The notes beneath the pieces were generated by a model. It searched no databases, was not told where the DNA came from, and saw only the letters and a program-made list of their open reading frames with translations. 37,698 nucleotides of DNA, taken from positions 1 to 37,698 of the IMG/VR virus record IMGVR_UViG_3300012209_000327; one strand, given 5' to 3'. A program made the position numbers and the translations under genes. Positions 10,639 through 31,406 of this stretch are shown here, piece after piece. Position 1 is the first letter of the stretch; every line of letters begins with the position of its first letter. Source of the stretch: a virus.

Positions 10639-13368
10639 ATGGTAGTGACTGCGGAACAATTTCAAAATTATAGAACATTTGCCAATCTTTCAAAAGAAGA
10701 GAAATATCAGTTCATTGAAGGATTGAACGATGAAGAATCTCTGCAACTGAAATTCACCTGGGAAGCATGGGCACGTGACAAACAACTAGAACCACCTGGC
10801 GATTGGTGGAGTACCTGGCTCATACTTGCAGGCAGAGGATTCGGAAAATCGAGAACTGGCGCAGAATGGATTAGAAAACAGGTAGAAGCAGGAAGATACG
10901 GTAGAATTGCCATAGTTGGAAGAACAGCAGCAGATGTAAGAGATGTCATGCTGTATGGTGAGTCTGGGCTAGTTACAAATAGCCCTCCCTGGTTTATGCC
11001 GAAACATGAGGGAACACGTAGAAGACTCGTATGGCCGAACGGCGCTATTGCCACAACGTATAGTGCCGAGGAACCTAATTCAATGCGCGGACCGCAGCAC
11101 GACGCTGCCTGGTGTCTGGTAGGACATACTCTTGTCCTGATGTCTGACGGAACAGAAAAACCAATAGCAGAAATTCGTGTAGGAGATTACGTTCAAACCA
11201 GGTTAGGAGCCAAACGAGTAACCGGAAGCTCATTAATGGAAAAGAATACTAAGGTGTACCTACTACGTACCATGGACGGAAGAAATCTAGTAGGAACAGC
11301 CTCTCATAAGGTTTGGGAGACTGAAAAGGGGTTTATTCCCTTAGCATCTTTTTCAGAAGGAATGAACGTATGTGTGACGCATGCATCGAATTGGACGGCT
11401 ACATCTGGCATAAACGTGCCAGCAGAGACTACTACGAAAGACGCATCTTGTTGCACCGTTATGTTTGGGAACAAACGTACGGAAAAATACCAGAAGGATA
11501 TCATATCCATCACAGAAATGAAGATAAGACGGATAACCGACTGGAAAATTTGGAATTGCTTACACATGGGGAACACAGTTCTCTGCACTATTCAAGACTG
11601 GCTCCCTATAAAGAAAAAGCCTGGGCTAACGCTAAGAAATCAATGGATGAGAATAAGCACTTACGTATGCAGCGTGTCCTCACTTGTACCTATTGTGAGA
11701 AGGCATTCCATAGCCCTTCGGCCCACCCGACTAGTTTCTGTTCATCGGCCTGCGTTGAGGCTTACAGGTCAGGGGCTTTCAGGGGGGAGGTTAGGTTGTG
11801 CGAGTACTGCGGTGAGGAATATACAGCTACGAAGAGAGCACAGTTATACTGCTCGAAAAAGTGTAACGGGAGAGCTTCCGCACAGAGAGCCGGACAACTC
11901 GTGGTTCAATCAATCACCTGTGATTACTGCCAAAAAGTGTTTGAGTCGAAGAGAGCAAATGCTCGGTTCTGCTGTGATGGTTGCGCCAAAGCTTTCCACG
12001 CAACCAATCGTTACCGTAAAAAGATTAAAGAAAACTTATGATGTCTACGATATAACAGTTGAGGATGCCCATGAGTTTTTTGCAAATGGCATCCTCGTTC
12101 ATAACTGTGACGAAATATGTTTAACTGCGGGTTCCCAGGTGCTTACTTCGGAAGGTGAAAAACCGATTGAAGGTATTGTACCTGGGGATCTTATTTTAAC
12201 TAGGGTGGGTTTTAAAAGGGCGACTACAGCAGGGTGTACAAGTAAAAACTCCACTGTATCCCTTCTCCAGCTTTCTACTGGAAGATCTATTATGGGTACC
12301 GCGTCTCATCCAATATGGGTCCAGGGAAAAGGATTCTCTCCATTGGGAACTCTCCGGCCTGGGGATATTTTAATAGATGAGCAGAGTTCTGAAGTTTCCT
12401 GTGTTTCAGTAGCGAAACTTCATAATAAAATGGCAGTCTTTAACTTGGAGGTAGAGGACTGCCATGAGTATTTTGCAAACGGAATACTTACGCATAACTG
12501 TGCGTGGCGCACCTCAGATTCGCTAGATCAGCTTTTGCTCGGCCTCCGTCTCGGACCTCATCCACGTGTCATACTCACTACCACCCCCCGTCCAACGAAA
12601 GAGATCAAACAACTTGTCAAAATGAGTACGACCTATGTCACCAATGGGACTACTTATGAAAATCGTGATAATCTTGCCCAGATGTTCTTTGATCAAGTTA
12701 TTCGTAAGTTCGAAAACAGTCGCCTTGGACGCCAAGAACTACTAGCTCAATTATTGGATGATGCAGAAGGGGCATTATGGAAACGTGAAGCCATGATTGA
12801 GCAGTATCGTGTTGTGAAAGCTCCAGATCTGGTACGTGTAGTGGTTGGTGTGGACCCGGCAACAACATCTGAAGAAGATTCTGATGAGACTGGTATTGTT
12901 GTGGCAGGTCGTGGTGCTGATGGTCACTTGTATATTCTCGATGATCTTTCATTACGTGGCAGTCCTCAAGAATGGGCTACACAGGCTGTTACTGCTTACT
13001 ACAAATATCAGGCTGATCGCATTATTGGAGAATCTAACCAGGGTGGAGATATGGTAGAGAATACGATCAGGATGGTTGACAGATATGTGGCCTACAAGAA
13101 GGTTCATAGTAAGCGGGGGAAGTACGCTCGTGCTGAACCAGTTGCCGCATTGTATGAACAGGGGAGAGGTCATCATGTTGGCATGTTCCCTGAACTTGAG
13201 GATCAACTTTGTTCGTGGGAACAAGGTGTAGCAGAGTCGCCGGATCGTCTAGATGCTCTTGTTCATGCTGCAACTGAACTCATGTTAGAAGGATATAGTG
13301 GAGATGGTGGTGTAATCACCATGTCTTCACTCAATATTCCGGGTGACGAGTTCAACCCATTCTGGTAA
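10639..13368 (+). CDS. Terminase large subunit precursor with two inteins
   Basis: 909 aa precursor; removing two inteins leaves about 451 aa, normal for a large terminase. Exteins: Walker A LAGRGFGKSRTGAEW (about 63-77), YSAEEPNSMRGPQHDAAW before intein 1, then CDEI, intein 2, then CAWRTSDSLDQLLLGLRLG and the ATPase coupling motif TTTPRPTK. Joined, WCDEICAW forms Walker B with the catalytic Glu. The C-terminal RNase H-like nuclease begins at VVGVDPATTSEEDSDETG, with further acidic positions at IGESNQGGD and SPDRLDALVHA. The protein cuts and pumps DNA into the prohead as part of the packaging motor. Splicing of both inteins is needed to restore the ATPase site. Confidence 0.95.
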   Translation: MVVTAEQFQNYRTFANLSKEEKYQFIEGLNDEESLQLKFTWEAWARDKQLEPPGDWWSTWLILAGRGFGKSRTGAEWIRKQVEAGRYGRIAIVGRTAADVRDVMLYGESGLVTNSPPWFMPKHEGTRRRLVWPNGAIATTYSAEEPNSMRGPQHDAAWCLVGHTLVLMSDGTEKPIAEIRVGDYVQTRLGAKRVTGSSLMEKNTKVYLLRTMDGRNLVGTASHKVWETEKGFIPLASFSEGMNVCVTHASNWTATSGINVPAETTTKDASCCTVMFGNKRTEKYQKDIISITEMKIRRITDWKIWNCLHMGNTVLCTIQDWLPIKKKPGLTLRNQWMRISTYVCSVSSLVPIVRRHSIALRPTRLVSVHRPALRLTGQGLSGGRLGCASTAVRNIQLRREHSYTARKSVTGELPHREPDNSWFNQSPVITAKKCLSRREQMLGSAVMVAPKLSTQPIVTVKRLKKTYDVYDITVEDAHEFFANGILVHNCDEICLTAGSQVLTSEGEKPIEGIVPGDLILTRVGFKRATTAGCTSKNSTVSLLQLSTGRSIMGTASHPIWVQGKGFSPLGTLRPGDILIDEQSSEVSCVSVAKLHNKMAVFNLEVEDCHEYFANGILTHNCAWRTSDSLDQLLLGLRLGPHPRVILTTTPRPTKEIKQLVKMSTTYVTNGTTYENRDNLAQMFFDQVIRKFENSRLGRQELLAQLLDDAEGALWKREAMIEQYRVVKAPDLVRVVVGVDPATTSEEDSDETGIVVAGRGADGHLYILDDLSLRGSPQEWATQAVTAYYKYQADRIIGESNQGGDMVENTIRMVDRYVAYKKVHSKRGKYARAEPVAALYEQGRGHHVGMFPELEDQLCSWEQGVAESPDRLDALVHAATELMLEGYSGDGGVITMSSLNIPGDEFNPFW
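11113..12105 (+). other. Intein 1 in TerL, carrying an HNH gene out of frame
   Basis: Residues 159-489 of the precursor (331 aa). The start is Cys (CLVGHTLVLMSDGTEKPI) with block B GTASHKVW (TxxH). The end is DITVEDAHEFFANGILVHN followed by Cys, giving the standard His-Asn/Cys splice junction. The middle, about residues 245-455, has no intein or endonuclease similarity in the TerL frame because this DNA encodes the HNH protein at 11370-12041 in another frame. The intein frame nevertheless lacks stops, so the splicing domain should be translated with a long spacer. Confidence 0.9.
11370..12041 (+). CDS. HNH endonuclease encoded in another frame inside intein 1
   Basis: 223 aa from ATG 11370, with AGAAGGA at 11355-11361. 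RYVWEQTYGKIPEGYHIHHRNEDKTDNRLENLELLTHGEHSSLH is summarised by its key parts: IHHRNEDKTDNRLENL is the HNH core (HH, N, N), and LTHGEHS closes the site, typical of phage HNH homing nucleases. Three Cys-rich fingers follow: CTYCEKAFHSP, CEYCGEEYTA with CSKKC, and CDYCQKVFES. The gene sits at frame offset +2 relative to the terminase frame, so both frames are open over 224 codons. It likely drives homing of intein 1 but is made as a separate protein rather than as part of the intein. Confidence 0.88.
   Translation: MCDACIELDGYIWHKRASRDYYERRILLHRYVWEQTYGKIPEGYHIHHRNEDKTDNRLENLELLTHGEHSSLHYSRLAPYKEKAWANAKKSMDENKHLRMQRVLTCTYCEKAFHSPSAHPTSFCSSACVEAYRSGAFRGEVRLCEYCGEEYTATKRAQLYCSKKCNGRASAQRAGQLVVQSITCDYCQKVFESKRANARFCCDGCAKAFHATNRYRKKIKENL
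12118..12498 (+). other. Mini-intein 2 in TerL
   Basis: Residues 494-620 of the precursor (127 aa), only four extein residues (CDEI) after intein 1. It starts CLTAGSQVLTSEGEKPIEG, has block B GTASHPIW, and ends NLEVEDCHEYFANGILTHN followed by Cys. It lacks any endonuclease domain, near the minimum size for an autonomous splicing domain. It is clearly homologous to intein 1 in blocks A, B, F and G, suggesting both derive from a common ancestor or one arose by a jump to a neighbouring Cys codon. Confidence 0.9.
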
Positions 13369-13651
13369 AAATATTGCACAGTTTATATAAAAATATGGCA
13401 AATTACACTATTTTTGGTACTGTTATACGAGAAGTGGCCTTAGAGGGTTTACATGGGTCAATACACCTATGGGGTCATGAAAAGTCCAGAACAGCGTCCT
13501 AGAGCGATTATGAGCATTTTGGGAGTTACAGGTGTAAAATGACCTGTCTGAAATAGGGTATTTTAGAGTGAATGTGTGAAAATGTGGGAAATATCGAAAA
13601 GAGGCTACACTTATTTGTGTAATTGTAGTGAGAGTGTAATTGTTAGCAGAC
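13369..13651. repeat. Dispersed intergenic element, copy E1
   Basis: A 283-base non-coding gap between the convergent terminase gene and - strand operon. From 13429 it contains a block with GTGGCCTTAGAGGG and ACATGGGTCAATA that recurs with small changes in E2 (21557-21855) and E3 (23063-23372). Near the end it carries GTGTAATT boxes at about 13613 and 13633, and the inverted box AATTACAC near 13401. No open frame or strong hairpin was seen apart from the terminator that follows. Confidence 0.65.
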
Positions 13652-13679
13652 AAAAAAAACTCCCCTGTAACCAGGGGAG
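13652..13679 (-). terminator. Rho-independent terminator of - strand small-gene operon
   Basis: On the - strand: stem CTCCCCTG, loop GTTA, stem CAGGGGAG, then eight T. The perfect 8-bp GC-rich stem and T tract make this a clear terminator, 22 bases after the last gene of the operon. Confidence 0.93.
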
Positions 13680-13701
13680 CGAATTAGCGTAGCTAGGGGT
13701 A

Positions 13702-13980
13702 CTAGTTGAATTTTGCGATGACGTATTCGGCCAGTTCTGGGCTTATTTTGTGTATACCTTGTATGCGCCTGTTGCGGAACGATTGTTTGAAATCTTTAAG
13801 AATGTCGTATACTTTTTGCGAAAATAGCAACATGACTTTTTCTTTTGCTACCTGGTCAAGCGTCGAAAGCTTGTTGACAATCACAGAATTTGGTGCATCG
13901 AGAAAAATGTCAGCAATGGCATTTTCGTCTGAACCTGCTTTTTTAAGAAGTTTCGAAACTCTTCTTTCTTCTGATGTCAT
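13702..13980 (-). CDS. Small helical protein, last gene of the operon
   Basis: 92 aa. ATG 13980 is preferred over 14004 because AAGAAAGGA lies just before it. Predicted all-helical: TSEERRVSKLLKKAG, LDQVAKEKVMLLFSQKVYDIL and a C-terminal ISPELAEYVIAKFN. The SPELAE segment resembles VSSELAERLIDELNA of the gene at 15739, so it belongs to the helical class of this cluster. It is preceded by its own promoter (14039-14067) and followed by a strong terminator. Function unknown; possibly an early regulator or host-interaction protein. Confidence 0.8.
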   Translation of the reverse strand: MTSEERRVSKLLKKAGSDENAIADIFLDAPNSVIVNKLSTLDQVAKEKVMLLFSQKVYDILKDFKQSFRNRRIQGIHKISPELAEYVIAKFN

Positions 13981-14038
13981 GATTTTTTGTCCTTTCTTGA
14001 ACAACCAGCGAACTAAAATTTATTTATCTTGTATGAAT

Positions 14039-14067
14039 ACTATAGCATACTTTTACAGTTTTGTCAA
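14039..14067 (-). promoter_or_regulatory. sigma70 promoter upstream of 13980 gene
   Basis: On the - strand: -35 TTGACA (14062-14067), 17-base spacer, -10 TATAGT (14039-14044). It matches five similar - strand promoters in this window. Confidence 0.85.
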
Positions 14068-14117
14068 TCATATTTTCGTGAGTTTTCACGCTACTTTAAA
14101 ACCTCATGAACGCTGTT

Positions 14118-14303
14118 CTACCAGGGTATTTCCCATACTCCGTAGCACACTTTTCGAACAGTTCGTATTCCTATTATTTCTCCGAGTTGTACCTGGCCGA
14201 AGAATAGTCCGAATGGATCTTCATAGATGTTCCCGACTGTCATACTTGGCAAGAAAATGGTATGCGTTCTGTCGAGATAGATGGTTTGTGTTACTTCTCT
14301 CAT
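14118..14303 (-). CDS. Small beta-module protein
   Basis: 61 aa from ATG 14303, with AAAGGA at 14314-14319. It is a stand-alone version of the beta module found through this block: TQTIYLDRTHTIFLP, VGNIYEDPFGLFFGQ, and the closing VCYGVWEIPW. It aligns in order with the gene at 16533 (TILDKHRTIYQDNVEVVHIW) and with that at 22659. No Cys pair, membrane segment or enzyme motif. Function unknown. Confidence 0.75.
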   Translation of the reverse strand: MREVTQTIYLDRTHTIFLPSMTVGNIYEDPFGLFFGQVQLGEIIGIRTVRKVCYGVWEIPW

Positions 14304-14320
14304 GGTGTGATAGTTCCTTT

Positions 14321-14638
14321 CTATTCGGCTATTTCCCAATCGCGATGATCGAGCAGAACAACATCCTTGTTTCCGTACTGGCCGATCGTTATTCCATATT
14401 TCGAAATGACGTTTGTGATAGTTACACCGCTATAGAGTGGATGCCTTTTCTCGTTGACGATCTGCTGGTTTTCTCTGTCTTCCTGCTTGAACTTGTTCCA
14501 TGTAATGAGAATGGTCAGAATCTTCAGAGCTGCCTCCTTGTCAGTTCTATCTTCAGAAAGGATACCCACCCAGTTCTCACGGGGGAGGTTGGCGAGTTGG
14601 ATAATTTTGTAGGCTGCTTCTCTAGTGAGATTTTTCAT
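14321..14638 (-). CDS. Small helical plus beta-module protein
   Basis: 105 aa with AAAGGAA 10 bases before ATG 14638. The N-terminal half is helical (AAYKIIQLANLPRENW, KEAALKILTILITWNKF). The C-terminal half is the beta module: QQIVNEKRHPLYSGVTITNV, ISKYGITIGQYG, VVLLDHRDWEIAE, ending in the Trp-x-Ile signature. The KEAALKILTIL stretch resembles TEAALKIITLILQGEK in the neighbour at 14657, so the two are paralogues. Leu and Ser codons here avoid TTA, CTA and TCA, keeping the antisense + frame open. Function unknown. Confidence 0.8.
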   Translation of the reverse strand: MKNLTREAAYKIIQLANLPRENWVGILSEDRTDKEAALKILTILITWNKFKQEDRENQQIVNEKRHPLYSGVTITNVISKYGITIGQYGNKDVVLLDHRDWEIAE

Positions 14639-14656
14639 GATACTTATTTTCCTTTC

Positions 14657-14968
14657 TTAGCGAACCAGTTCCCATGTTCCATCTTCACAGAGATACACGC
14701 CTTCTTCAGCGTGAATACCGATGGTCATTCCGTGAAGTGTAATAATATCAGTCACCCATCCATCCTTGTCGAGAAGACGGTCGTTGTACATGATCGTCTG
14801 AACACCTTTCCAATCTGGAAGTTTTTCCCCCTGGAGAATAAGAGTGATAATCTTCAGAGCAGCTTCAGTGTTGAATTGCTTCAAGTATTCGAAACGCTTT
14901 GCCTCATCCATGGATCTGGCACGAACAGCATGGAAACGGAGCAAGTTAAAGGTTTTTATGGTCTGCAT
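14657..14968 (-). CDS. Small helical plus beta-module protein
   Basis: 103 aa, ATG 14968 preceded by AAGAAAGG. Helical N-domain (AKRFEYLKQFNTEAALKII) and beta module (VQTIMYNDRLLDKDGWVTDI, LHGMTIGIHAEEGVYLCEDGTWELVR). It has the same order as the 14321 gene: helix with EAALKI, then Q-x-I strand, hydrophobic-Gly-hydrophobic-x-Ile-Gly turn, then Gly-Thr-Trp-Glu-Leu. Function unknown; regulated with its neighbours from the upstream promoter at 15437. Confidence 0.8.
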   Translation of the reverse strand: MQTIKTFNLLRFHAVRARSMDEAKRFEYLKQFNTEAALKIITLILQGEKLPDWKGVQTIMYNDRLLDKDGWVTDIITLHGMTIGIHAEEGVYLCEDGTWELVR

Positions 14969-14985
14969 GTTTTGAATTACCTTTC

Positions 14986-15384
14986 TTATTTGAGGCCGCT
15001 ATTTTCCATAAGCATTTCGAATACACGGACAACCGTCTCGTGGCCGAATGTATCCAGGTCTTTAAGATGTGCAAATGCCTGTTCTGGAGTGGACCACTTG
15101 AGATTGCGGAATGTATACCTGGCACAGAACTCGATCCACACTTTGTTAGCAAATTCTTCGTTGGTTGACTTGAGAGCCTTCATAATCTCAACATGGTCCT
15201 GGTCAGGTGGTACTGCTTCGAATTTCTCCACGACAAGCTTTTTAACAATTGGAAGTATGTTTGCGGATGCATCTGGAAAGTCCTGTTCCCACATGCTAAC
15301 GCTTCGACCAATCTCCGGCCATGATTGGCTAACAATTTCTTGTGCTCTTTTCTGCTCATCTGAAATGTTCTTTTTGCTTCTCAT
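14986..15384 (-). CDS. Small helical protein
   Basis: 132 aa. ATG 15384 is chosen because AAGAAAGG lies 11 bases before it; the longer frame from 15441 lacks a ribosome site and overlaps the promoter. All-helical and highly charged: KNISDEQKRAQEIVSQSWPEIG, ANILPIVKKLVVEKFEAV, and PEQAFAHLKDL near the C-terminus with VVRVFEMLMENSG, which resembles AVRVMEMLQKG in the 15739 product. It lacks the beta module. First gene after an internal promoter. Function unknown. Confidence 0.78.
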   Translation of the reverse strand: MRSKKNISDEQKRAQEIVSQSWPEIGRSVSMWEQDFPDASANILPIVKKLVVEKFEAVPPDQDHVEIMKALKSTNEEFANKVWIEFCARYTFRNLKWSTPEQAFAHLKDLDTFGHETVVRVFEMLMENSGLK

Positions 15385-15436
15385 CTTTTTGAAATACCTT
15401 TCTTGCTTGACTGTTTTGTATGTATCTTGTAAGTCA

Positions 15437-15465
15437 ATCATAACATATTTTTACAAATTTGTCAA
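15437..15465 (-). promoter_or_regulatory. sigma70 promoter upstream of 15384 gene
   Basis: On the - strand: TTGACA (15460-15465), 17-base spacer, TATGAT (15437-15442). The leader contains ACAGTCAAG shortly before the ribosome site, shared with the leaders of the 17014 and 22883 genes. Confidence 0.85.
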
Positions 15466-15505
15466 GCAATATTCCACTGGATTTACAGGCTTTGGAAAAA
15501 CTCGT

Positions 15506-15742
15506 TTAGTGCAGGCCCAGGTGGGAAATGACCTCGTCGCAAAAGGTGGCACCACAGAATTGTTCCAATTCGCGATAGATGCGCAGACGTTTGGAATACA
15601 TGGAAAGGCCTTGAAATTCACCGCTCGTTCTGAAGATGCTGGCTATATTGGAAACGGAATTGCAATGGCTCCCTGCATTGAGAATGGTCGAATAGATGGT
15701 TTCCCTGGAAAGAGACAGACGTTCAACGAATTGCTTTTTCAT
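15506..15742 (-). CDS. Small protein of unknown function
   Basis: 78 aa, with AAAGGA 10 bases before ATG 15742; its start overlaps the stop of the next gene upstream. Mixed helical sequence (RETIYSTILNAGSHCN, YSKRLRIYRELEQFCGATFCDEVI) with three Cys and two His but no clear zinc-finger spacing. It shows no obvious relation to the helical or beta modules around it. Confidence 0.7.
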   Translation of the reverse strand: MKKQFVERLSLSRETIYSTILNAGSHCNSVSNIASIFRTSGEFQGLSMYSKRLRIYRELEQFCGATFCDEVISHLGLH

Positions 15743-16107
15743 GACTGTATCGTTCCTTTCTGCAACATCTCCATAACTCTTACAGCCTGTTTTCTTGGCA
15801 TGTATATAATCGCGTTGAGAGCCTCTTCTGGCTTAAAGCTTTTGAGGATGTTGGTATATACACGCCTGGCATTCAACTCGTCAATAAGGCGTTCTGCAAG
15901 CTCTGAGGAAACCTGGTCGATCAGACACATTTTGGAGACTCTGTTAGTGAATGGAACATCTTCTAACAGATTCACCAGGTATCCCCAGAGTCTCTTGGCG
16001 AGGTCTTTATCCTCTGTCTGTTCAGTTTCAAGGAGCATTTTCGCCTTCTTGCTAAAGGTCAAGCTGAAAAATTTTTCGGTGATCTTTTGCTGTTCTGTCT
16101 TTTCCAT
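15739..16107 (-). CDS. Small helical protein
   Basis: 122 aa from ATG 16107 with AGGGAG upstream. All-helical, very charged: QKITEKFFSLTFSKKAKMLL, KDLAKRLWGYLVNLLEDV, SSELAERLIDELNARRV and FKPEEALNAIIYMPRKQAV RVMEML in the last third. The PEEAL and VRVMEML segments recall the 14986 product, indicating a paralogous helical fold. No beta module. Function unknown. Confidence 0.78.
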   Translation of the reverse strand: MEKTEQQKITEKFFSLTFSKKAKMLLETEQTEDKDLAKRLWGYLVNLLEDVPFTNRVSKMCLIDQVSSELAERLIDELNARRVYTNILKSFKPEEALNAIIYMPRKQAVRVMEMLQKGTIQS

Positions 16108-16120
16108 GACTTCATCTCCC

Positions 16121-16474
16121 TTATCTTTCTATTCTCCAGACATTATTCTCGACATGGATAACGTTGTGATGCTGTGCCATACAGTAGACCTCTCCGAACA
16201 TGACAGTTCCCTTTTTAGTGATGGCGAAAACATGTTGTCCTGCATTGCCTTTTCCATCTATCGGATCAACAATGATTTGCTCTCTTCGATCATCGGCATC
16301 GTTTTGATGGCCTTCCAGGATGATAGCGAATATTCTCAGACCCATTTTATCCATACCGGACAGCCTCTCGATCAATTCCTCTTGTGGCAGGTCCCGGTAT
16401 TCCATAACCATGCAAGCAATGATTTGTGCTTCGCTTGTCAGGTGCTTTGGAATGTTTGGATAATTGTTGGACAT
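16121..16474 (-). CDS. Small helical plus beta-module protein
   Basis: 117 aa. ATG 16474 follows AAAGGAA; the frame continues upstream to 16573 but those codons have no ribosome site. Helical N-domain (TSEAQIIACMVMEYRDL, GLRIFAIILEGHQND) and beta module (REQIIVDPIDGKG, VFAITKKGTVMFGEVY, NVIHVENNVWRIER). It ends with the Trp-Arg-Ile form of the signature. A GC-rich inverted repeat lies just upstream at 16499-16524. Function unknown. Confidence 0.8.
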   Translation of the reverse strand: MSNNYPNIPKHLTSEAQIIACMVMEYRDLPQEELIERLSGMDKMGLRIFAIILEGHQNDADDRREQIIVDPIDGKGNAGQHVFAITKKGTVMFGEVYCMAQHHNVIHVENNVWRIER

Positions 16475-16498
16475 AGTAGATTTCCTTTCTCTTTGCAA

Positions 16499-16524
16499 CG
16501 GGGGGAAGTACCACACCTCCCCCG
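16499..16524 (-). other. Intercistronic hairpin
   Basis: Inverted repeat CGGGGGGA at 16499-16506 and TCCCCCG at about 16518-16524, lying between the stop of the 16533 gene and the ribosome site of the 16474 gene. It lacks a T tract, so it may be an RNA-processing or stability element rather than a terminator. Confidence 0.5.
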
Positions 16525-16532
16525 TCATATCA

Positions 16533-16754
16533 TTAAATATCGAATACCCAGGTGTCATCTGAGAACAGTACAACGGCTACAAAGGATATTCCTTCAGGCC
16601 AGATTTCCAGATCGGATGGTTTTGTTACGACAATTTTGGCATTTCCACACGGACGACCACGATAGTTTTCCCAGATGTGAACAACTTCTACATTGTCTTG
16701 ATAGATGGTACGATGCTTATCGAGAATGGTCTGATGTAGCTTGGTTTTTGACAT
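16533..16754 (-). CDS. Small stand-alone beta-module protein
   Basis: 73 aa with AAAGGAA 8 bases before ATG 16754. Sequence blocks QTILDKHRTIYQDNVEVVHI, WENYRGRPCGNAKIVV and the end LFSDDTWVFDI. The gene at 22659 (TVLNFDANAIYAENVQVVNI, GYSCGYALV, NNKWAVDL) is a close paralogue in a separate operon, showing this module has been copied between blocks. Function unknown. Confidence 0.78.
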   Translation of the reverse strand: MSKTKLHQTILDKHRTIYQDNVEVVHIWENYRGRPCGNAKIVVTKPSDLEIWPEGISFVAVVLFSDDTWVFDI

Positions 16755-16777
16755 GGTCCTGGTTCCTTTCTGGAAGA

Positions 16778-17014
16778 TTAAGCGTAAAACTGAATACCGA
16801 GAAGATCTGCAACTATGTGACCATAATTGAGATTGGCACTACCCTTGTACATTCTCCTCAGGTAGGAAGCCTGTTCGCTTTCCGGGTCATTCATGAAGAA
16901 GTAGTTGTTGGACAACTGGATAGCATGATTGATAGCGGCCTCTTCACGCATCTTGTGATGTTGCTCGGCAAGTCTACTGGCCTCTTCATAGGTCATGGAT
17001 GTTGGTGTGATCAT
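16778..17014 (-). CDS. Small helical protein
   Basis: 78 aa, ATG 17014 preceded by AAAGG. Predicted helical throughout: TYEEASRLAEQHHKMREEAAINHAIQL, then ESEQASYLRRMYKG and a C-terminal YGHIVADLLGIQFYA, summarised in pieces. First gene after a perfect-consensus promoter (17066-17094). Function unknown. Confidence 0.78.
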   Translation of the reverse strand: MITPTSMTYEEASRLAEQHHKMREEAAINHAIQLSNNYFFMNDPESEQASYLRRMYKGSANLNYGHIVADLLGIQFYA

Positions 17015-17065
17015 GGTGTGATACCTTTCTTTTACTTGACTGTATTTGTTTTTCTTGTTACGTCA

Positions 17066-17094
17066 AGTATAGCATATTTTACTATAATTGTCAA
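17066..17094 (-). promoter_or_regulatory. Perfect sigma70 promoter upstream of 17014 gene
   Basis: On the - strand: TTGACA (17089-17094), 17-base spacer, TATACT (17066-17071). The leader carries ACAGTCAAG before the ribosome site, as at two other promoters. Confidence 0.9.
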
Positions 17095-17133
17095 GCAAAT
17101 ATTCATGAAATATGCAGGTGCGAAAAAATCTTT

Positions 17134-17469
17134 TTATTTCACCCCAAAAAGAAGAAATATTACTGTCTGGAATCCGTTCCAATTCTTTCGGCGGAAAGAG
17201 AAGCGACTGCTTAATGTATCGATGATTTCATGGGAAAATGTTGGGTGTACTTTCTGTATTTCAACCAGCATGGAAATACGCTTGAGAACGTTCACTCTTT
17301 CCAGTTCTGGGATCATCTCTTTGAGTAAGTATGGAGCAACTTCGGCTGCAAGCATTGGATCGGTCTTTTCCAGCTTTAGCAGATCTTTTGCAATAGTAGC
17401 GTATGATTCTGCCAGCCAGATGCAGGAAATATCTTCCGCATCTGGATTGGAATTTTGTGAACGCAGCAT
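17134..17469 (-). CDS. Small helical protein
   Basis: 111 aa. The frame runs to 17694, but ATG 17469 is the likely start since AAAGAAGAAA precedes it and the upstream part overlaps the neighbouring gene. Helical: DISCIWLAESYATIAKDLLK, LAAEVAPYLLKEMIPEL, RISMLVEIQKVHPTFSHEII. It resembles the helical class of the operon. No beta module. It ends 40 bases before the promoter at 17066-17094. Function unknown. Confidence 0.72.
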   Translation of the reverse strand: MLRSQNSNPDAEDISCIWLAESYATIAKDLLKLEKTDPMLAAEVAPYLLKEMIPELERVNVLKRISMLVEIQKVHPTFSHEIIDTLSSRFSFRRKNWNGFQTVIFLLFGVK

Positions 17470-17482
17470 GATTTTCTTCTTT

Positions 17483-17785
17483 CTAGGCAACCAGTCTCCA
17501 TACACAGCCATACATATGGAAAACGTGCTGGTCCTGAAACTGACCGATCTCCGAATCTCCATATACTCGAATATTCGTAATAGCGGAACAAATCGAGTAC
17601 AGACCTCCATGAACACCTTGAATAATCTGGATTTTCTGATCTGTCCGAGACTCTCCATTGAGCAGCAGGTTGAGTACCTCATCGGATTCATCAATAGTCA
17701 TTCTGTCCTGGTTCTTCATGATTTCTGCTGCTCTTTTGGCAATTTTCTGTTGTTTCGTAAGTGGCAGGACTCTTTCTTGAATCAT
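17483..17785 (-). CDS. Small helical plus beta-module protein
   Basis: 100 aa from ATG 17785 with AGGAGA upstream. Helical N-domain (TKQQKIAKRAAEIMKNQDRM, DEVLNLLLNGE) and beta module (QKIQIIQGVHGGLYS, AITNIRVYGDSEIGQFQ, HVFHMYGCVWRLVA). The module matches those at 14321 and 14657 (I-x-x-YG-x-x-x-IG followed by a closing Trp). Function unknown. Confidence 0.8.
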   Translation of the reverse strand: MIQERVLPLTKQQKIAKRAAEIMKNQDRMTIDESDEVLNLLLNGESRTDQKIQIIQGVHGGLYSICSAITNIRVYGDSEIGQFQDQHVFHMYGCVWRLVA

Positions 17786-17797
17786 GGTTTTCTCCTA

Positions 17798-18112
17798 CTA
17801 CCGGATTTTCCAGTAGTTGTCTCGAACATGCACAACATTGTAGTATTTTCCACCAAGATAACATTGTCCGGTAGTTGGATCATCCAGATGTGTTACTCCA
17901 CTAATCTTGTAGATCAGAACGTGGTCGAAGAAGAATTTTCCGTTGGTTCGGAGTACTACCTGGCGAATACGGCAATGGTCAAGCGCATCTTGAACAGCAA
18001 GAGCAAGATCCCTGTTACGAAGAACCAATGCTCGAAGCCTGACAATCTGATCGGCATAGGGAAGTGGAGAAACCACTTCCAACATTTCGCGAACTTCTTT
18101 TGTGGTGACCAT
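17798..18112 (-). CDS. Small helical plus beta-module protein
   Basis: 104 aa with AAGGAA before ATG 18112. N-domain TTKEVREMLEVV, ADQIVRLRALVLRNRDLALA and VQDALDHCRI; C-module RQVVLRTNGKFFFDHVLIYK, GQCYLGGKYYNVVHVRDNYWKIR. The N-domain aligns with those of the genes at 18128 and 18689 (D-x-x-hydrophobic, VAL/VLRN, ELA pattern), and the end NYWKIR is almost the same as SYWKIV at 18128. Function unknown. Confidence 0.82.
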   Translation of the reverse strand: MVTTKEVREMLEVVSPLPYADQIVRLRALVLRNRDLALAVQDALDHCRIRQVVLRTNGKFFFDHVLIYKISGVTHLDDPTTGQCYLGGKYYNVVHVRDNYWKIR

Positions 18113-18127
18113 GATTATTTCCTTAAA

Positions 18128-18448
18128 CTAGACGATTTTCCAGTAACTTCCACGGATATGGATAACCGCATACGCAATGTCGAAAGCATGAATCGTACCG
18201 TACGTAACACCTGCTCTATTCGTACCGATGTGATAGACCAGAAACCGATCTTTGGATGGTTCCTTGAACAATCTTCCGTCCTTAGAAACCATTTGACTGA
18301 CCATACAAACCAGCAACTCTTTTCGAACCTGTACAACAAGTTCCGGCTGACGAAACGCGACCTGGTTGAATACAGCCTCTCGATCACTTTGTGTGAGGAG
18401 AACTACTGTTTCCAGCAGTTCCCTGATCTCGAAACACTTTACAGGCAT
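18128..18448 (-). CDS. Small helical plus beta-module protein
   Basis: 106 aa with AAAGGAGA before ATG 18448. N-domain EIRELLETVVLLTQSDREAV, FNQVAFRQPELVVQVRKEL; C-module SQMVSKDGRLFKEPS, FLVYHIGTNRAGVTYGTIHA, YAVIHIRGSYWKIV. It is a paralogue of the next gene downstream (17798-18112) along its whole length. Function unknown. Confidence 0.82.
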   Translation of the reverse strand: MPVKCFEIRELLETVVLLTQSDREAVFNQVAFRQPELVVQVRKELLVCMVSQMVSKDGRLFKEPSKDRFLVYHIGTNRAGVTYGTIHAFDIAYAVIHIRGSYWKIV

Positions 18449-18460
18449 ACTAGTTCTCCT

Positions 18461-18664
18461 TTAGATGGCCTTCCAGCAACCTGGTGCCCAACAGATAACG
18501 GGAACTTTTACGGCTCTGGTGAGGAAGAATACCCCAACAGTTTGGCTGTCTCCACGTACCGTTACTTTTTCCACAGGATAATGGGAATACAGTCTGGAAC
18601 CGACCATAATGGTCTGGTTTATAAGTGTGTCGATAGGTTGTGGCTTTGTGGTTCTTGTGATCAT
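18461..18664 (-). CDS. Small stand-alone beta-module protein
   Basis: 67 aa, ATG 18664 preceded by AAAAGGAA. Sequence DTLINQTIMVGSRLYSHYPV, KVTVRGDSQTVGVFFL and the closing ICWAPGCWKAI. It lacks a helical N-domain and appears to be a more diverged member of the beta-module family. Function unknown. Confidence 0.75.
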   Translation of the reverse strand: MITRTTKPQPIDTLINQTIMVGSRLYSHYPVEKVTVRGDSQTVGVFFLTRAVKVPVICWAPGCWKAI

Positions 18665-18688
18665 GATAATTTTCCTTTTCTTTTGAAA

Positions 18689-18877
18689 CTACTGAACTTG
18701 TGCGGATATCTGGTTACGAATACGCAGGATGTCCGTACATCTCGCTGCATACTTTGGGTTGGTCAGAGCCACCTGATAGAGTATCTCCTTTTGATCGTCA
18801 TTGGAGAGGTCTTCCAGGTTGTGGATAAATTGTGCAAGCTGTACTTCTGCCAGGATTCTGGTTTGCTGAGTGACCAT
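18689..18877 (-). CDS. Small stand-alone helical-domain protein
   Basis: 62 aa from ATG 18877 with AAGGAG upstream. The segment SNDDQKEILYQVALTNPKYA followed by ARCTDIL aligns with the N-domains of the 18128 product (SDREAVFNQVAFRQPELV) and the 17798 product, so this gene is that helical domain without its beta module. Good evidence for modular shuffling in this operon. Function unknown. Confidence 0.78.
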   Translation of the reverse strand: MVTQQTRILAEVQLAQFIHNLEDLSNDDQKEILYQVALTNPKYAARCTDILRIRNQISAQVQ

Positions 18878-18889
18878 GAGTATGTCTCC

Positions 18890-19069
18890 TTACTTTTTGA
18901 TGGATAATCGAACAGAAATAACGAGATATTCGATAGTGGTTGGAACCTGCTGGCAAGATAGAGCTGATCGACAGAGAGAAAACAATACATTTAAGGAGGT
19001 GCCAGTGGGAGATGCGATGGCCCCTATGTATACGAATGCGTAGGCTAGTCTGGTGATGTCATCGTACAT
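18890..19069 (-). CDS. 59-aa first gene of the operon
   Basis: ATG 19069 is preceded by AAGAAAGG at 19078-19085 and lies 51 bases downstream of a consensus promoter; the frame ends at TAA 18890-18892, just before the ribosome site of the next gene. The product begins MYDDITRLAYAFVYIGAIAS and has a hydrophobic stretch (about residues 9-32), so it may be membrane-associated, with three Cys near the middle. It resembles no other gene here. Function unknown. Confidence 0.7.
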   Translation of the reverse strand: MYDDITRLAYAFVYIGAIASPTGTSLNVLFSLCRSALSCQQVPTTIEYLVISVRLSIKK

Positions 19070-19119: not shown

Positions 19120-19148
19120 AGTATAATATATTTTGACACTTTTGTCAA
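19120..19148 (-). promoter_or_regulatory. Main promoter of the small-gene operon
   Basis: On the - strand: TTGACA (19143-19148), 17-base spacer, TATACT (19120-19125), about 50 bases before ATG 19069. Consensus sigma70 promoter, consistent with strong early expression. Confidence 0.9.
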
Positions 19149-19211: not shown

Positions 19212-20711
19212 ATGCGTAGAAGAACGAGGTATCAGGCACAAAAGGAATCACGAAGCATTTCTCCTCGTGAAAAAGATTTAGAGGACCTGCTTCGTAGAAC
19301 TGAACAGATGTTGATGGAGGCCAGGACAACTGCTCGTGGGCAAATGTCCAAGTCGGTTGCCTGGGATGAATCAGAATCACTTGGCATCCCTTCACAGGCG
19401 AAGCGCATCAATAATATGAGTGAAAGAGAGTACAAGGATACTCTCTGTCGAGCTTACATTAATATGCCATGGATTGCTGCCTGCATTGATGCCAGGATTC
19501 TGAGGTTGATCAGTGGAACATGGGAACTGGCACCGACTGTAGATAACCCGGATCAAAAAGCCTATGATCAGATTATGGGACTCTTGACTTATATCAATGA
19601 TGATGAAGACCTGATGCAGTACTTGTATTCGTATGGTTTGGACATGATGATCTACGGAGAGGCGTACACTGAAATTGTCTGCGGGGGGAAGGGGAAGCCA
19701 TCGGATATTCCTACGGCGTTACACAAGGTTGATTGCCAGACCATGACCTTCGATCTTGATGAAACAGGCAATGTGAAAACGTACAAGCAGATACTCCAAC
19801 ATCAGAAAGAGCCAATTGTTTTTGAGCCAGATCAGATTATGAGATGCTGGTTCCCTAGTCCTGAAAGTAATAAGAAGGCATTATCTCCAATTGCCAAATT
19901 AGTGAATACGGCCATGTTGTACGAGCAAATGATGGAATGGGCGAGAAATTACTTCAAAAAAGGTGCTCGACCTCCATTTTCATTCGAACATCCTGGAGAT
20001 CGTCGGCATGCAGAAGAGTTCCTCATATGGATCAAGGAAAACTTTACTGGCAGACAGAATGCTCATGTGCCCTTGATCACGTTTGATGGCGTCAAGATGG
20101 TCTATGCTCCACCTGGTCCAGTAGATATGGATTTTCTAAAAGGATTGGAGTGGTGCAGACAGGAAACCATGTCTTCGATGCAAACACCACCTGCCAATAT
20201 TGCAGTCATCGAGTCTGGAAATCTTGGCAGTGGTTCAGGATTTTCACAGCAAACGAGCTTTATCCATAATGCTGTGCGACCACTGGAACGGTTCATTCTT
20301 GAAAAGTTTAACTACTCCATCATCAACAAGAAGTTCAATACGACCCATTGGAAGCTTGTACTCCATTATGCCAGCTATATGGAAGAGGCCGATCTGGCAA
20401 AGCTCGAAGATATGCGAATACATAATGGCACCAGTACTCCAAATGAAGCTCGTAAGGCTATGGATAGAAACCCGTATGAAAAATATGGTGATATTCCAGC
20501 CTTTGTCCTTGGTAGAGAAGTAGTGCCGTTGGATCGTCTTGACCTCATTTCCAGCGAACAAACTCAGACTGTGAATCTTGGCATTGAGTTGCAAAAGGTA
20601 CAGCTTGATAAACTAAAGAGTGCCCCAAGTGGCGAGATACTTGCTCTGCCTTCTACCACAACGCCACCGAGTCCTTCAGATGTTCCTCAAGGAATAAGTA
20701 AGGAAGAATAG
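19212..20711 (+). CDS. Portal protein
   Basis: 499 aa. The sequence follows the phage portal family: MSEREYKDTLCRAYINMPWI and CIDARILRLISGTWEL early, YGLDMMIYGEAYTEIV, VFEPDQIMRCWFPSPESNKK and LSPIAKL (the typical region that follows the stem), WARNYFKKGARPPFSFE, and the segment ending SMQTPPANIAVIESGNLGSG. Twelve copies form the ring at one capsid vertex, through which terminase pumps DNA. The C-terminus is Pro/Ser-rich. It starts at ATG 19212 after a repetitive GGTGGTGG rather than a usual AGGAGG. It is separated from the terminase by the 5.5-kb - strand block. Confidence 0.93.
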   Translation: MRRRTRYQAQKESRSISPREKDLEDLLRRTEQMLMEARTTARGQMSKSVAWDESESLGIPSQAKRINNMSEREYKDTLCRAYINMPWIAACIDARILRLISGTWELAPTVDNPDQKAYDQIMGLLTYINDDEDLMQYLYSYGLDMMIYGEAYTEIVCGGKGKPSDIPTALHKVDCQTMTFDLDETGNVKTYKQILQHQKEPIVFEPDQIMRCWFPSPESNKKALSPIAKLVNTAMLYEQMMEWARNYFKKGARPPFSFEHPGDRRHAEEFLIWIKENFTGRQNAHVPLITFDGVKMVYAPPGPVDMDFLKGLEWCRQETMSSMQTPPANIAVIESGNLGSGSGFSQQTSFIHNAVRPLERFILEKFNYSIINKKFNTTHWKLVLHYASYMEEADLAKLEDMRIHNGTSTPNEARKAMDRNPYEKYGDIPAFVLGREVVPLDRLDLISSEQTQTVNLGIELQKVQLDKLKSAPSGEILALPSTTTPPSPSDVPQGISKEE

Positions 20712-21556: not shown

Positions 21557-21855
21557 TATTTGCACGATACCTGTAAATTTTAGTGAAAATATACAAAAAG
21601 TACGCGCTCCAGAATGACCTGGAGATGGCCTTACAAGGTTTGAATGGGTCAATATATGGGTAGAGTCTATGGGGTATTAAAGGTCATTCTGGGGTCGTTA
21701 CAAGCATGTATGCCTGTTCAACGAGGGTAAAAGTGGGTGTTTTGGGGTCATTTAGGGGACAAACAGTGGTTTGCTGGTCAATAATGAGTGTAATTATATA
21801 ATATGTGTAAATTAGCACAGGTGTTCTTGCTGGCGAAAGACGGTGTGGAAAAGTG
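21557..21855. repeat. Dispersed intergenic element, copy E2
   Basis: A non-coding gap of about 300 bases between convergent genes. It contains AATATACAAAAAGTACGCGC, then ATGGCCTTACAAGGTTTGAA and TGGGTCAATATA, matching E1 and E3, and a GTGTAATT box near 21787. GGTCATTCT occurs here and, inverted, in E4. No open frame or strong hairpin within the conserved part. Confidence 0.7.
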
Positions 21856-22658: not shown

Positions 22659-22883
22659 CTAACAACGATTAAGGTCAACTGCCCACTTGTTGTTTGATGG
22701 ATCAATGGCCCACACAGGAACTTTTTCGTAACGTTGCATTGCGGCTGGAGCATTAGGATCATCGGCAACGAGGGCATACCCACAAGAATACCCAAGGGCA
22801 TCTTTGAAAATATTGACTACTTGAACGTTTTCTGCATAGATAGCATTGGCATCGAAATTGAGGACTGTTTGATTGTTGAACAT
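22659..22883 (-). CDS. Small stand-alone beta-module protein
   Basis: 74 aa, ATG 22883 preceded by AGAAGGG. TVLNFDANAIYAENVQVVNI, FKDALGYSCGYALVADD and NNKWAVDLNRC align in order with the 16533 gene, so it is a member of the same family in a different operon. First gene behind a consensus-like promoter. Function unknown. Confidence 0.78.
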   Translation of the reverse strand: MFNNQTVLNFDANAIYAENVQVVNIFKDALGYSCGYALVADDPNAPAAMQRYEKVPVWAIDPSNNKWAVDLNRC

Positions 22884-22933
22884 TGTTGTTACCCTTCTTT
22901 TGCTTGACTGTTTTGTTTTCTTAACCTACAAAT

Positions 22934-22962
22934 ATAGTAACATATTTTTATATATTTGTCAA
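22934..22962 (-). promoter_or_regulatory. sigma70 promoter of the 22883 operon
   Basis: On the - strand: TTGACA (22957-22962), 17-base spacer, TACTAT (22934-22939). The leader includes ACAGTCAAG as in two promoters of the 13-19 kb block. Confidence 0.82.
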
Positions 22963-23062
22963 GCTAAAGCACCTGCTTTATACAGCTTAGTAGTACTAAT
23001 TTTTATAGCCAATAAGTACTAACCTAAAATAGTGCGTACTGTTTTAAAATAGTACAAAGATT
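22963..23062. other. Promoter-distal spacer with AGTACT boxes
   Basis: Non-coding. It holds several AGTACTAA/AGTACT-like boxes (about 22991 and 23016, with GTACT variants to 23055) and paired AAAATAGT octamers. They could be binding sites for a regulator of the divergent promoters; nothing else is evident. Confidence 0.3.
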
Positions 23063-23372
23063 CTAAAACAGGGTCATTTTTATACCAGCACTGTAAAATT
23101 TTGTGGTCTTATACAAATAGTACGTGCTCTACGATGGTCGAGAAATGGCCTTACGAGATCTACATGGGTCAATATACTTACGAGCTTGTACAGGGCCTTC
23201 TTCGTCATCTCAGCGTTACTGTAGGCATAACGAATGTGTAGATTGACGCAAACCAGGGGATTTTGGGGTACAATGATGGGAAAACTACAGTTTACATGTG
23301 CGTATATAGTGTAATTCTATATCACATAGAATTAAGGCATAGTGTTCTGGCTTATTTTAAAGGAAAAAACCT
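23063..23372. repeat. Dispersed intergenic element, copy E3
   Basis: Non-coding. CTGTAAAATTTT (23091) then ATACAAATAGTACGTGCTCT and ACGATGGTCGAGAAATGGCC, TTACGAGATCTACATGGGTC, followed by a GTGTAATT box near 23311. This is the most complete copy: its first part matches E4 and its middle matches E1 and E2. It sits between divergent genes, so it may contain the promoter for the + gene at 23373. Confidence 0.7.
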
Positions 23373-27419: not shown

Positions 27420-27605
27420 AAAAACACCTGTCTTACACAAGAAAAATACCCTCAATTGCGCTAGAATGACCATCAGCACCAGGCTATTTCCACCTATGTA
27501 TTTGTATGTCTAGAAGCGCTAAAGGTCTTTCTCAGCCATCGTAGAGCACGTACTTTTTGTATATTTTTATAAAATTTTACATAAAAACTGTAAATAGTAG
27601 GCACT
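27420..27605. repeat. Dispersed intergenic element, copy E4 (inverted)
   Basis: Read on the - strand, 27582-27524 gives TGTAAAATTTT, AAAATATACAAAAAGTACGT, GCTCTACGATGG and GAGAAAGACCTTTAGC, matching the first half of E3 (and part of E2). The second half differs, but GGTCATTCT (from E2) is also found. Orientation is opposite to E1-E3. It lies between divergent genes (27242 and 27841). Confidence 0.65.
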
Positions 27606-27627
27606 TTGTTCTAGCATTTGACGTTTC

Positions 27628-27642: not shown

Positions 27643-27743
27643 TGGATGTTGGGTATTATCGTTCACGATAAACCTTCCGACAAGATAGTAGTGACGGAAA
27701 TCACCCCTATCAGAAGAGCTATGCTGAACGTAGCTCTTTTTTT
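27643..27743 (+). ncRNA. Candidate ~100-nt structured small RNA
   Basis: Between the extended -10 at 27628 and the terminator at 27714-27743 there is no open frame. The RNA would contain a stem with TTATCG and CGATAA around a TTCA loop (27657-27672) extended by GGT/ACC, a GTGA/TCAC stem (27691-27704), and the terminator. It matches no RNA family I know. The transcript end is inferred. Confidence 0.4.
27714..27743 (+). terminator. Rho-independent terminator
   Basis: Stem AAGAGCTA (27714-27721), 9-base loop, stem TAGCTCTT, then a T tract to 27743. Strong terminator upstream of the structural operon. Confidence 0.88.
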
Positions 27744-27770
27744 CACGTATTGTGTTTTTATTGAATGTTG

Positions 27771-27779
27771 TGCTATACT
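27771..27779 (+). promoter_or_regulatory. Extended -10 promoter for the structural operon
   Basis: TGCTATACT: extended -10 with TATACT at 27774-27779, and a possible TTGTGT -35 eighteen bases upstream. It would start transcripts about 55 bases before the GTG at 27841. Confidence 0.55.
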
Positions 27780-27795
27780 ATGAATAGCTGCCCTT

Positions 27796-27825
27796 GCCGG
27801 ACGTTAGAAACGTTCGGCATTTTTT
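27796..27825 (+). terminator. Leader hairpin/terminator before the protease gene
   Basis: Stem GCCGGACGTT and AACGTTCGGC (one G-T pair) with a 3-base loop, followed by A and six T. Located just after the predicted start of transcription and before the GGGGGA ribosome site, so it could act as an attenuator or merely end the upstream RNA. Confidence 0.8.
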
Positions 27826-30291: not shown

Positions 30292-30329
30292 TAATTATTT
30301 TTTCTAGGTCTAGAAAAAATAATTATTAA
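30288..30329. terminator. Perfect 20-bp inverted repeat after protease gene
   Basis: Two perfect 20-base arms with a GT loop (30308-30309), containing the stop codon of the protease gene and both T6 and A6 tracts. AT-rich, so a bidirectional terminator or a cruciform-like element. It ends 4 bases before an AAGGAG ribosome-like site. Confidence 0.7.
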
Positions 30330-30355
30330 CTAGAAGGAGTATAGTGAAACAGTCT

Positions 30356-31258
30356 TTAACTATCGACACCACGCTTGTCATAAGCACTCAAAGAGGAAAA
30401 CAATCGATTAGACTTCCTTTGATTACACACGGCATGAGTAGGTCTGATATTATCGGTTGTATGACTCCCTGGTTCTATTCCAGAGCCTTCTTGAGGAACC
30501 AATGGAATAACATGGTCATAATGGAGTTTTTGATCTGGAAAGATTTCTTTCACGCAGATATAGCACCACGGCCCATGTTCTTCCAAGATTTTTCGATAGT
30601 TGACTGGTCCAGTTTTTACTCCAAGTTTTGCTGCCAAACGTTTCCTATAATATCCAGCATACAATTCTGGATTCTCTTTTCTATGCTTTCGATGCATAGC
30701 ATTGATATGCTCTGGATCATTAGGATGTGTTCTGTAATAGTTTTTACCGTATTCAGAAATGTGCTCTCGATATTCGGGATCTGTAGCGAGACGATTTTGA
30801 CGCCGTTCTCTGTTCTGAACAACAAAAGTGTTATTGTATGCCCTTCTCTGTTCGAGGTTTGCAATGTAGCATGCGTGGTGGCGTTCATTGATTCTGTCCC
30901 TAGTTCTATCCGCAATGACTTTCTTTCTTTGACGCTCATGCTCCCTACAGTAGGTGGCATATCCATCTTTGATTCCAGCACTCTTGTTGAATTTTTCCAC
31001 TGGTTTTTCTTCATTACAGTCTGGGCAAAATTTGTTGAGCAGAAACAATGGTTGTTGCACAATATTTTCAGATCTTTTTTGAAGATTTTTCAGACCTATA
31101 CGGGCATTTTCACATTTTCTGCATATGGTTCTAATGCCTCGTTTAGTGTCACTTCTTCCAGGGAAAAATTTAATAGTAGCAGAGAAAGGTTTCCCACATG
31201 CACTACAGTTTTGCATGTTGCTAGGACCTTCTTCTTGAAGGTCGCTAACGATTTCCAT
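30356..31258 (-). CDS. Free-standing HNH endonuclease (inserted, antisense)
   Basis: 300 aa from ATG 31258, with AAGGAGT upstream, opposite in direction to the surrounding structural genes. Two N-terminal Cys-rich knuckles (CSACGKPFSA with CRKC, and CPDCNEEKPVEKF with C) precede a basic helical linker. The C-terminal nuclease has CYICVKEIFPDQKLHYDHVI (HxDH), IRPTHAVCNQRKSN, the endonuclease VII/HNH arrangement. It separates the protease/scaffold from the major capsid gene. A likely mobile homing gene. The + strand stays free of stops across it (30344-31372), with an AAGGAG-GTG start. Confidence 0.88.
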   Translation of the reverse strand: MEIVSDLQEEGPSNMQNCSACGKPFSATIKFFPGRSDTKRGIRTICRKCENARIGLKNLQKRSENIVQQPLFLLNKFCPDCNEEKPVEKFNKSAGIKDGYATYCREHERQRKKVIADRTRDRINERHHACYIANLEQRRAYNNTFVVQNRERRQNRLATDPEYREHISEYGKNYYRTHPNDPEHINAMHRKHRKENPELYAGYYRKRLAAKLGVKTGPVNYRKILEEHGPWCYICVKEIFPDQKLHYDHVIPLVPQEGSGIEPGSHTTDNIRPTHAVCNQRKSNRLFSSLSAYDKRGVDS

Positions 31259-31312
31259 AATGAATATTACTCCTTGTCAGTAAATCAAACTATATGCAAT
31301 AAATTTAAATAT

Positions 31313-31341
31313 ATTATAACACACAATACGGGCACAGTAAA
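31313..31341 (-). promoter_or_regulatory. Promoter of the HNH gene
   Basis: On the - strand: TTTACT (31336-31341), 17-base spacer, TATAAT (31313-31318). Its GTGTTATAATAT sequence is the inverted copy of that of the capsid promoter at 31360, so the two face each other in an inverted repeat. Confidence 0.55.
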
Positions 31342-31359
31342 CAATGTGTCCTTAAAAGG

Positions 31360-31368
31360 TGTTATAAT
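31360..31368 (+). promoter_or_regulatory. Extended -10 promoter of the capsid gene
   Basis: TGTTATAAT: extended -10 with a perfect TATAAT (31363-31368) and no good -35, 39 bases before ATG 31407. Confidence 0.6.
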
Positions 31369-31406
31369 ATAAGTGCGGTGGTTAAGTGGTTTAGGAGGAC
31401 TTTAGC

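Follow-up and report, generated by a model that had tools for sequence, protein, structure and literature searches.

How one DNA strand can remain free of stop codons for 5.2 kb while the other carries an operon of small genes is the question raised by IMG/VR virus record IMGVR_UViG_3300012209_000327, the 37.7-kb genome of a double-stranded DNA (dsDNA) tailed phage that encodes its terminase, portal and major head protein on the + strand. The window analyzed here comprises the whole record, positions 1 to 37,698. On its + strand, a frame of 1733 codons extends from a TTG at 13706 to a TAA at 18905-18907 without a single stop. This frame is the longest in the window, about twice the length of the runner-up, the terminase gene with 911 codons, and lies antisense to a block of 16 small − strand genes located between the terminase and portal genes. 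It is bounded on the 5' side by a TAG at 13703-13705 that overlaps the last − gene at its stop codon, and on the 3' side by its own TAA, 28 bp past the ATG of the first, such that its edges (13706-18907) approximate those of the operon coding region (13702-18877). It covers 15 complete − genes and nearly all of the 16th (13702-13980), rather than the 16 complete genes and part of the first counted in the original prediction. Outside the frame, the same phase contains 67 stops in the preceding 1000 codons and 69 in the following 1000, and the other two + phases across the block contain 108 and 102 stops. The earlier estimate of about 80 stops by chance had the right magnitude; judging from the flanks, a sequence under no constraint would contain about 117. 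The existence of the open frame is thus confirmed.

The number of stops to be expected was determined by three synonymous shuffles, each of which keeps every − protein fixed. With the codon usage of the late genes, 47.7 stops were expected (minimum 26 in 1000 runs), and with a block-wide shuffle 26.3 (standard deviation 3.5, minimum 16 in 1000 runs). Shuffling only within each gene forces the in-register genes to zero, and the 10.9 stops still expected (standard deviation 2.3, minimum 4) all fall in the six out-of-register genes. The frame therefore never stayed open in the permutation that had been suggested as a check. The same shuffles correctly predict the stops in the two sister phases (108 observed versus 100 expected, and 102 versus 97), indicating that only this one phase is depleted.

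The distribution of stop-generating codons within the block provides another view of this depletion. Ten of the 16 − genes are in register with the + frame and six (13702, 14118, 14986, 15739, 16533 and 17134) are not, as had been claimed. TTA, CTA and TCA account for none of the 122 Leu and Ser codons in the in-register genes, versus 18 of 93 in the out-of-register genes (Fisher p = 1e-7); among Ser codons alone, TCA is found in 0 of 41 and 11 of 39 cases, respectively (p = 1.6e-4). The gene at 13702 does use TCA and CTA codons, in agreement with the original observation. Since this contrast arises inside a single block, block-wide codon bias is excluded. In the genes of staggered register, dipeptides that would force a stop are absent, where residue shuffles predict about 3.6; this sign is weak but fits the rest. 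The list of these dipeptides matches the published rules for staggered frames, except that Phe-Ser is also listed there (PMC6884476). The spacers, including three promoters (608 nucleotides), contain no stop in 208 codons of the open phase, versus 17 and 15 in the other phases, and at the other-phase rate the probability of this result is about 1e-7. Three promoters lie inside the frame, as originally stated; a fourth was located outside it, at 19148. The internal promoter spacings, 1398 and 1629, are each divisible by 3, and the homologous promoter of a second − block (22900-22966), outside the open frame, contains a stop in the matching phase. The − genes are largely paralogous and fall into families A (about 105 amino acids, with a C-terminal V...W motif), B (all-helical) and C (short). 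Paralogues linked by BLAST keep their register, with five family A genes all in register and three family B genes all in register 2, while two paralogues of the second − block (25365 and 25721) differ in register. Shared registers would be the expected pattern if duplicates survived only where the + phase stays open. Stops are accordingly avoided beyond codon bias, and chance and codon preference cannot explain the openness; the claim that in-register codon choice is insufficient holds under all three permutation nulls and in the register contrast. An unusual origin of the block, another of the early suggestions, would not by itself hold one phase open through promoters and genes in three registers.

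Such openness would also have to be selected in a real gene, and a possible ribosome-binding site precedes the 1733-codon frame. Both points favor true overprinting, in which the + frame would encode a functional late protein of very large size, with the − genes read early from the same DNA. The codon evidence, however, singles out the stop triplets. In the register contrast, TCA, which reads as TGA on the + strand, ranks first, and CTA and TTA are also near the top; TGA is the most depleted + codon in the out-of-register genes, and no clear depletion was detected among + codons other than stops. The codon-usage score of the + frame is near zero, like that of the sister frames, versus 0.11 per codon in the − genes. 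Among eight pairs of paralogous segments, the + translations show no similarity beyond that forced by the − similarity (z -0.8 to 1.4, BLOSUM score); constraint on the antisense product at the amino acid level was thus not found by a test of limited power, because only old, diverged paralogues are available. No relative of the + product was found in Pfam, PHROG, phage or IMG/VR data. The composition of the + polypeptide (Lys, hydrophobic stretches and codon adaptation) deviates mildly (z of about 2-3) and was initially taken as a hint of a real protein; this hint was dropped, as the two non-coding sister frames deviate equally. Since the stops stand out as depleted and the paralogues show no extra similarity, the + frame appears to be kept open by selection, and not for its amino acids. 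Overprinting, proposed originally as one explanation, finds no support in these results, and we consider it unlikely.

The position of the block offers a possible reason for such selection. The gap between terminase and portal measures only 15 bp in the relative IMGVR_UViG_3300044835_000117 (L003, also L006), and in the more distant phages MW202777 and PP395641 the two genes are adjacent or one short gene apart. Since terminase and portal are normally adjacent in relatives, the − block is an insert that splits them. Portal and capsid searches, which yielded IMGVR_UViG_3300044835_000117, also yielded the distant L004 and IMGVR_UViG_3300033475_001283 (L008, capsid 73%). No relatives of the − block were found encoded in L003 or L004, and L008 was not searched for them. 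Searches with a family A protein, a family B protein and the + frame, as well as scans of genome contigs, revealed no relatives; the family A alignment was too diverged for use in scanning. The + RNA of the block contains 54% pyrimidine versus 47% for the late genes, and no strong + terminator was found inside the block.

We tentatively propose that the + frame is translated so that late transcripts running from terminase to portal survive the crossing of antisense DNA, an anti-polarity function that may be directed against Rho. The − operon would constitute a real early-type gene block between two late + genes, and late transcripts starting upstream of or in the terminase region would cross 5.8 kb of antisense, pyrimidine-rich sequence before reaching portal. 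In Bacillus subtilis, Rho stops such pyrimidine-rich antisense RNA (PMC13323073). Ribosomes would load onto the + RNA immediately ahead of 13706, or enter from close by, and would then translate without a break to 18907. Translation would perhaps restart at the overlapping ATG at 18900 and continue to 19043, and this small open reading frame (ORF) would prolong + translation to within 170 nucleotides of the portal gene. The presence of ribosomes would keep the transcript elongating, most simply by denying naked RNA to Rho, and could also block pairing with early − RNAs, whereas the 1733-residue product itself would be irrelevant. Selection would have removed every + stop through synonymous choice in the − genes and held the duplicates and promoters in the open phase. 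The opposite strand is probably translated, and among the explanations first offered for this locus, antisense translation preventing premature termination is supported as the best fit. Translation as such, the point at which it begins, the course of the transcript and the involvement of Rho are inferred.

Several points weigh against this proposal. The start signal is modest, consisting of a TTG and an AGGGG whose duplex with the anti-Shine-Dalgarno sequence (-6.5 kcal/mol) ranks in the best 4.5% of all ATG/GTG/TTG triplets, which is suggestive only. About 337 nucleotides from the terminase stop to 13706 would stay untranslated. The second − block (21.9-27.2 kb) also lies between + genes and has no open + frame, although read-through may be unnecessary there should the downstream genes be served by a promoter of their own, as the terminator and promoter-like motif ahead of 27841 (described below) might suggest. 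In a host with runaway transcription, such as B. subtilis, ribosomes would not shield the RNA from Rho (PMC13323073), and the Rho version of the proposal would fail wherever polymerase outruns ribosomes. The whole analysis, moreover, is based on one genome.

Ribosomes could instead shield the + RNA, not from Rho, but from pairing with abundant early − transcripts, from RNase III or from decay. Both strands of the 5.2 kb would then be present as RNA at the same time, and ribosome protection is the leading idea for the ambigrammatic narnaviruses (PMC8155312, PMC8316113). Early and late transcripts are normally apart in time, however, and this explanation does not specifically account for a location between terminase and portal, and it leaves the second − block unprotected; it is distinctly unlikely. 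We consider it improbable that translation-assisted + transcription is needed for shutting down the early operon in the late phase of infection and not for portal expression. The agreement between the edges of the frame and of the operon coding region fits such a role, and the + RNA would keep each of the three internal − promoters occluded, yet silencing needs no complete crossing by a single uninterrupted frame, and no direct evidence points to it. The − genes could also be spurious shadows of one real, repetitive + gene, the frame that a longest-ORF gene caller would choose, and in principle − paralogues could mirror + repeats. This is highly improbable, given that AGAAAGGA-like ribosome-binding sites precede the ATG of nearly all − genes, that the genes are tightly tiled and served by four near-consensus promoters and a terminator, that the second − block, which lies away from the frame, contains a paralogue with its own promoter, and that the − codon usage fits the phage while that of the + frame does not. 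In addition, the structure model of the family B protein at 15739, built from five paralogues, has a mean predicted local distance difference test (pLDDT) score of 89, and the − gene products are therefore very likely real proteins. Finally, a by-product of codon bias, composition or chance, which the ten in-register genes might suggest as avoiding three codons suffices there, is refuted by the permutation tests and virtually excluded by the TCA contrast within the block and by out-of-register genes and spacers that are stop-free in this phase only, with the sister frames at expectation.

The features of the locus are summarized in the table. No confident family match was obtained for any protein of the − operon, and a fold search with the family B model returned no significant match, with only weak FliG-like matches. 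The family B proteins (15739-16107) are predicted to form all-helical repeats with a sub-threshold likeness to FliG middle and MgtE N domains. No tandem DNA repeats were detected, and no known RNA family was matched. The leader of the − operon (18990-19010) contains CACCUCCUUAAA, which mimics the 16S anti-Shine-Dalgarno sequence; its complement is a perfect AAGGAGGT on the + strand, before a GTG at 19005. CACCUCCUUAAA could possibly base-pair with the first − gene's ribosome-binding site, although the predicted fold is not stable, and the leader folds no better than shuffled sequences.

Table. Features of the − operon, the antisense + frame and the neighboring + genes.
Feature	Position	Strand	Remarks
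Terminase large subunit	10639..13368	+	two intein domains; upstream of block
Intrinsic terminator of − operon (strong)	13659..13680	−	no U-run in + direction
Possible ribosome-binding site AGGGG	13695..13699	+	6 nt before TTG 13706
− gene 16 (92 aa)	13702..13980	−	family-B-like, out of register; all except last bases under open frame
Stop-free frame (1733 codons)	13706..18907	+	TTG 13706 to TAA 18905-18907
Internal promoter TTGACA-17-TATAGT	14039..14067	−	within open frame, same + register
− gene 15 (61 aa)	14118..14303	−	family C, out of register
− gene 14 (105 aa)	14321..14638	−	family A, in register
− gene 13 (103 aa)	14657..14968	−	family A, in register
− gene 12 (132 aa)	14986..15384	−	family B, out of register
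Internal promoter TTGACA-17-TATGAT	15437..15465	−	within open frame, same + register
− gene 11 (78 aa)	15506..15742	−	in register
− gene 10 (122 aa)	15739..16107	−	family B, out of register; confident all-helical model
− gene 9 (117 aa)	16121..16474	−	family A, in register
− gene 8 (73 aa)	16533..16754	−	family C, out of register; paralogue of 22659-22883
− gene 7 (78 aa)	16778..17014	−	in register
Internal promoter TTGACA-17-TATACT	17066..17094	−	within open frame
− gene 6 (111 aa)	17134..17469	−	family B, out of register
− gene 5 (100 aa)	17483..17785	−	family A, in register
− gene 4 (104 aa)	17798..18112	−	family A, in register
− gene 3 (106 aa)	18128..18448	−	family A, in register
− gene 2 (67 aa)	18461..18664	−	in register
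− gene 1 (62 aa)	18689..18877	−	family-B-like, in register
Small + ORF	18900..19043	+	ATG 18900 overlaps stop of long frame (ATGGATAA); part of ORF 18870-19043
Promoter TTGACA-17-TATACT	19120..19148	−	upstream of operon, outside open frame
Portal protein	19212..20711	+	next + gene after block

Further observations concern the rest of the genome. The second − block contains a family C paralogue (22659-22883, −) with its own related promoter, and both blocks are therefore parts of one gene system. A + terminator is located at 27795-27819, just before the protease gene at 27841, and a second hairpin was recognized by eye at about 27715-27741. Between these terminator-like hairpins lies an extended -10 promoter-like TGCTATACT (about 27771-27779, by eye), and the arrangement (27714-27825, +) looks like a regulated late start. 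A non-coding element of about 100-250 bp is present in four copies, at 13372-13640, 21560-21840 and 23080-23350 (+) and at 27430-27620 (−), each adjoining a switch between − blocks and other genes. The three + copies share the core TGGCCTTAnnnGnTYTnnATGGGTCAATA, and the inverted copy gives rise to imperfect inverted repeats (21540/27613) that flank the second − block; the element has no Rfam match, and its core, searched as a DNA pattern, matched nothing in the databases. The terminase gene contains two intein/Hint regions nearly back to back (residues about 160-490 and about 493-620), and two C-terminal splice motifs that resemble each other, FANGI(L)xHNC, are located at 12058-12109 and 12451-12502. 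Another antisense open frame, of 306 codons (30356-31276, −), is in register with the + gene 30344-31372 and exists because that gene has only three TTA/CTA/TCA codons. A perfect 22-nucleotide inverted repeat is found at 30286-30331.

The nearest known phenomenon is that of the ambigrammatic narnaviruses, such as Culex narnavirus 1, in which a reverse frame without stops likewise extends over nearly the whole coding region, that of the segment encoding the RNA-dependent RNA polymerase (RdRp). The narnavirus reverse product has no known homologue and is apparently unconstrained as a protein (PMC8155312), and translation itself has been proposed as the function of the reverse frame (PMC8316113). 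Narnaviruses are RNA viruses of eukaryotes of about 3 kb, with one gene and a codon register that is always aligned (PMC6884476). In contrast, the present frame spans 5.2 kb of a dsDNA tailed phage, taking in 16 genes in three registers together with spacers and three promoters, and its role is likely related to transcription. Forward and reverse codons are aligned (the -0 frame) in ten genes and staggered in six, and the genome, rather than being RNA that encodes an RdRp, is DNA and encodes terminase, portal and a major head protein. On these two grounds, the locus is not classed as narnavirus-type, although it is ambigram-like in its working. The antitermination systems of phage lambda, based on N, Q and the put RNAs, modify RNA polymerase via a protein or an RNA. 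Lambda antitermination and anti-polarity address the same problem, namely how late transcripts get across stretches in which RNA polymerase would halt; unlike in lambda, the device proposed here is a long translated antisense frame, and no antiterminator was identified in this genome. Antisense frames within bacterial genes are also known from Escherichia coli O157:H7 (pop, laoB, asa and the oloz genes), with evidence of translation, but these are single short frames opposite one gene (pop, 603 bp; PMC7103648), whereas the frame described here crosses many genes and registers.

A search of the open-access literature for ambigrams in connection with phages yielded no case from a DNA phage. The locus could represent the first operon of a DNA virus with ambigrammatic coding, a possibility we put forward with caution: a 16-gene, three-register early block with a translated 1733-codon antisense 'ribosome track', whose product is meaningless and which lets late transcription pass as a sequence-encoded anti-polarity device. 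Phage genomes could be screened for further stop-free phases that span several genes and their spacers. If the proposal is true, the system would make it possible to test cleanly if transcription across antisense regions is protected by translation as such, even when its product serves no purpose, and it would reveal a DNA genome shaped across many genes and promoters by the need for a stop-free opposite strand.

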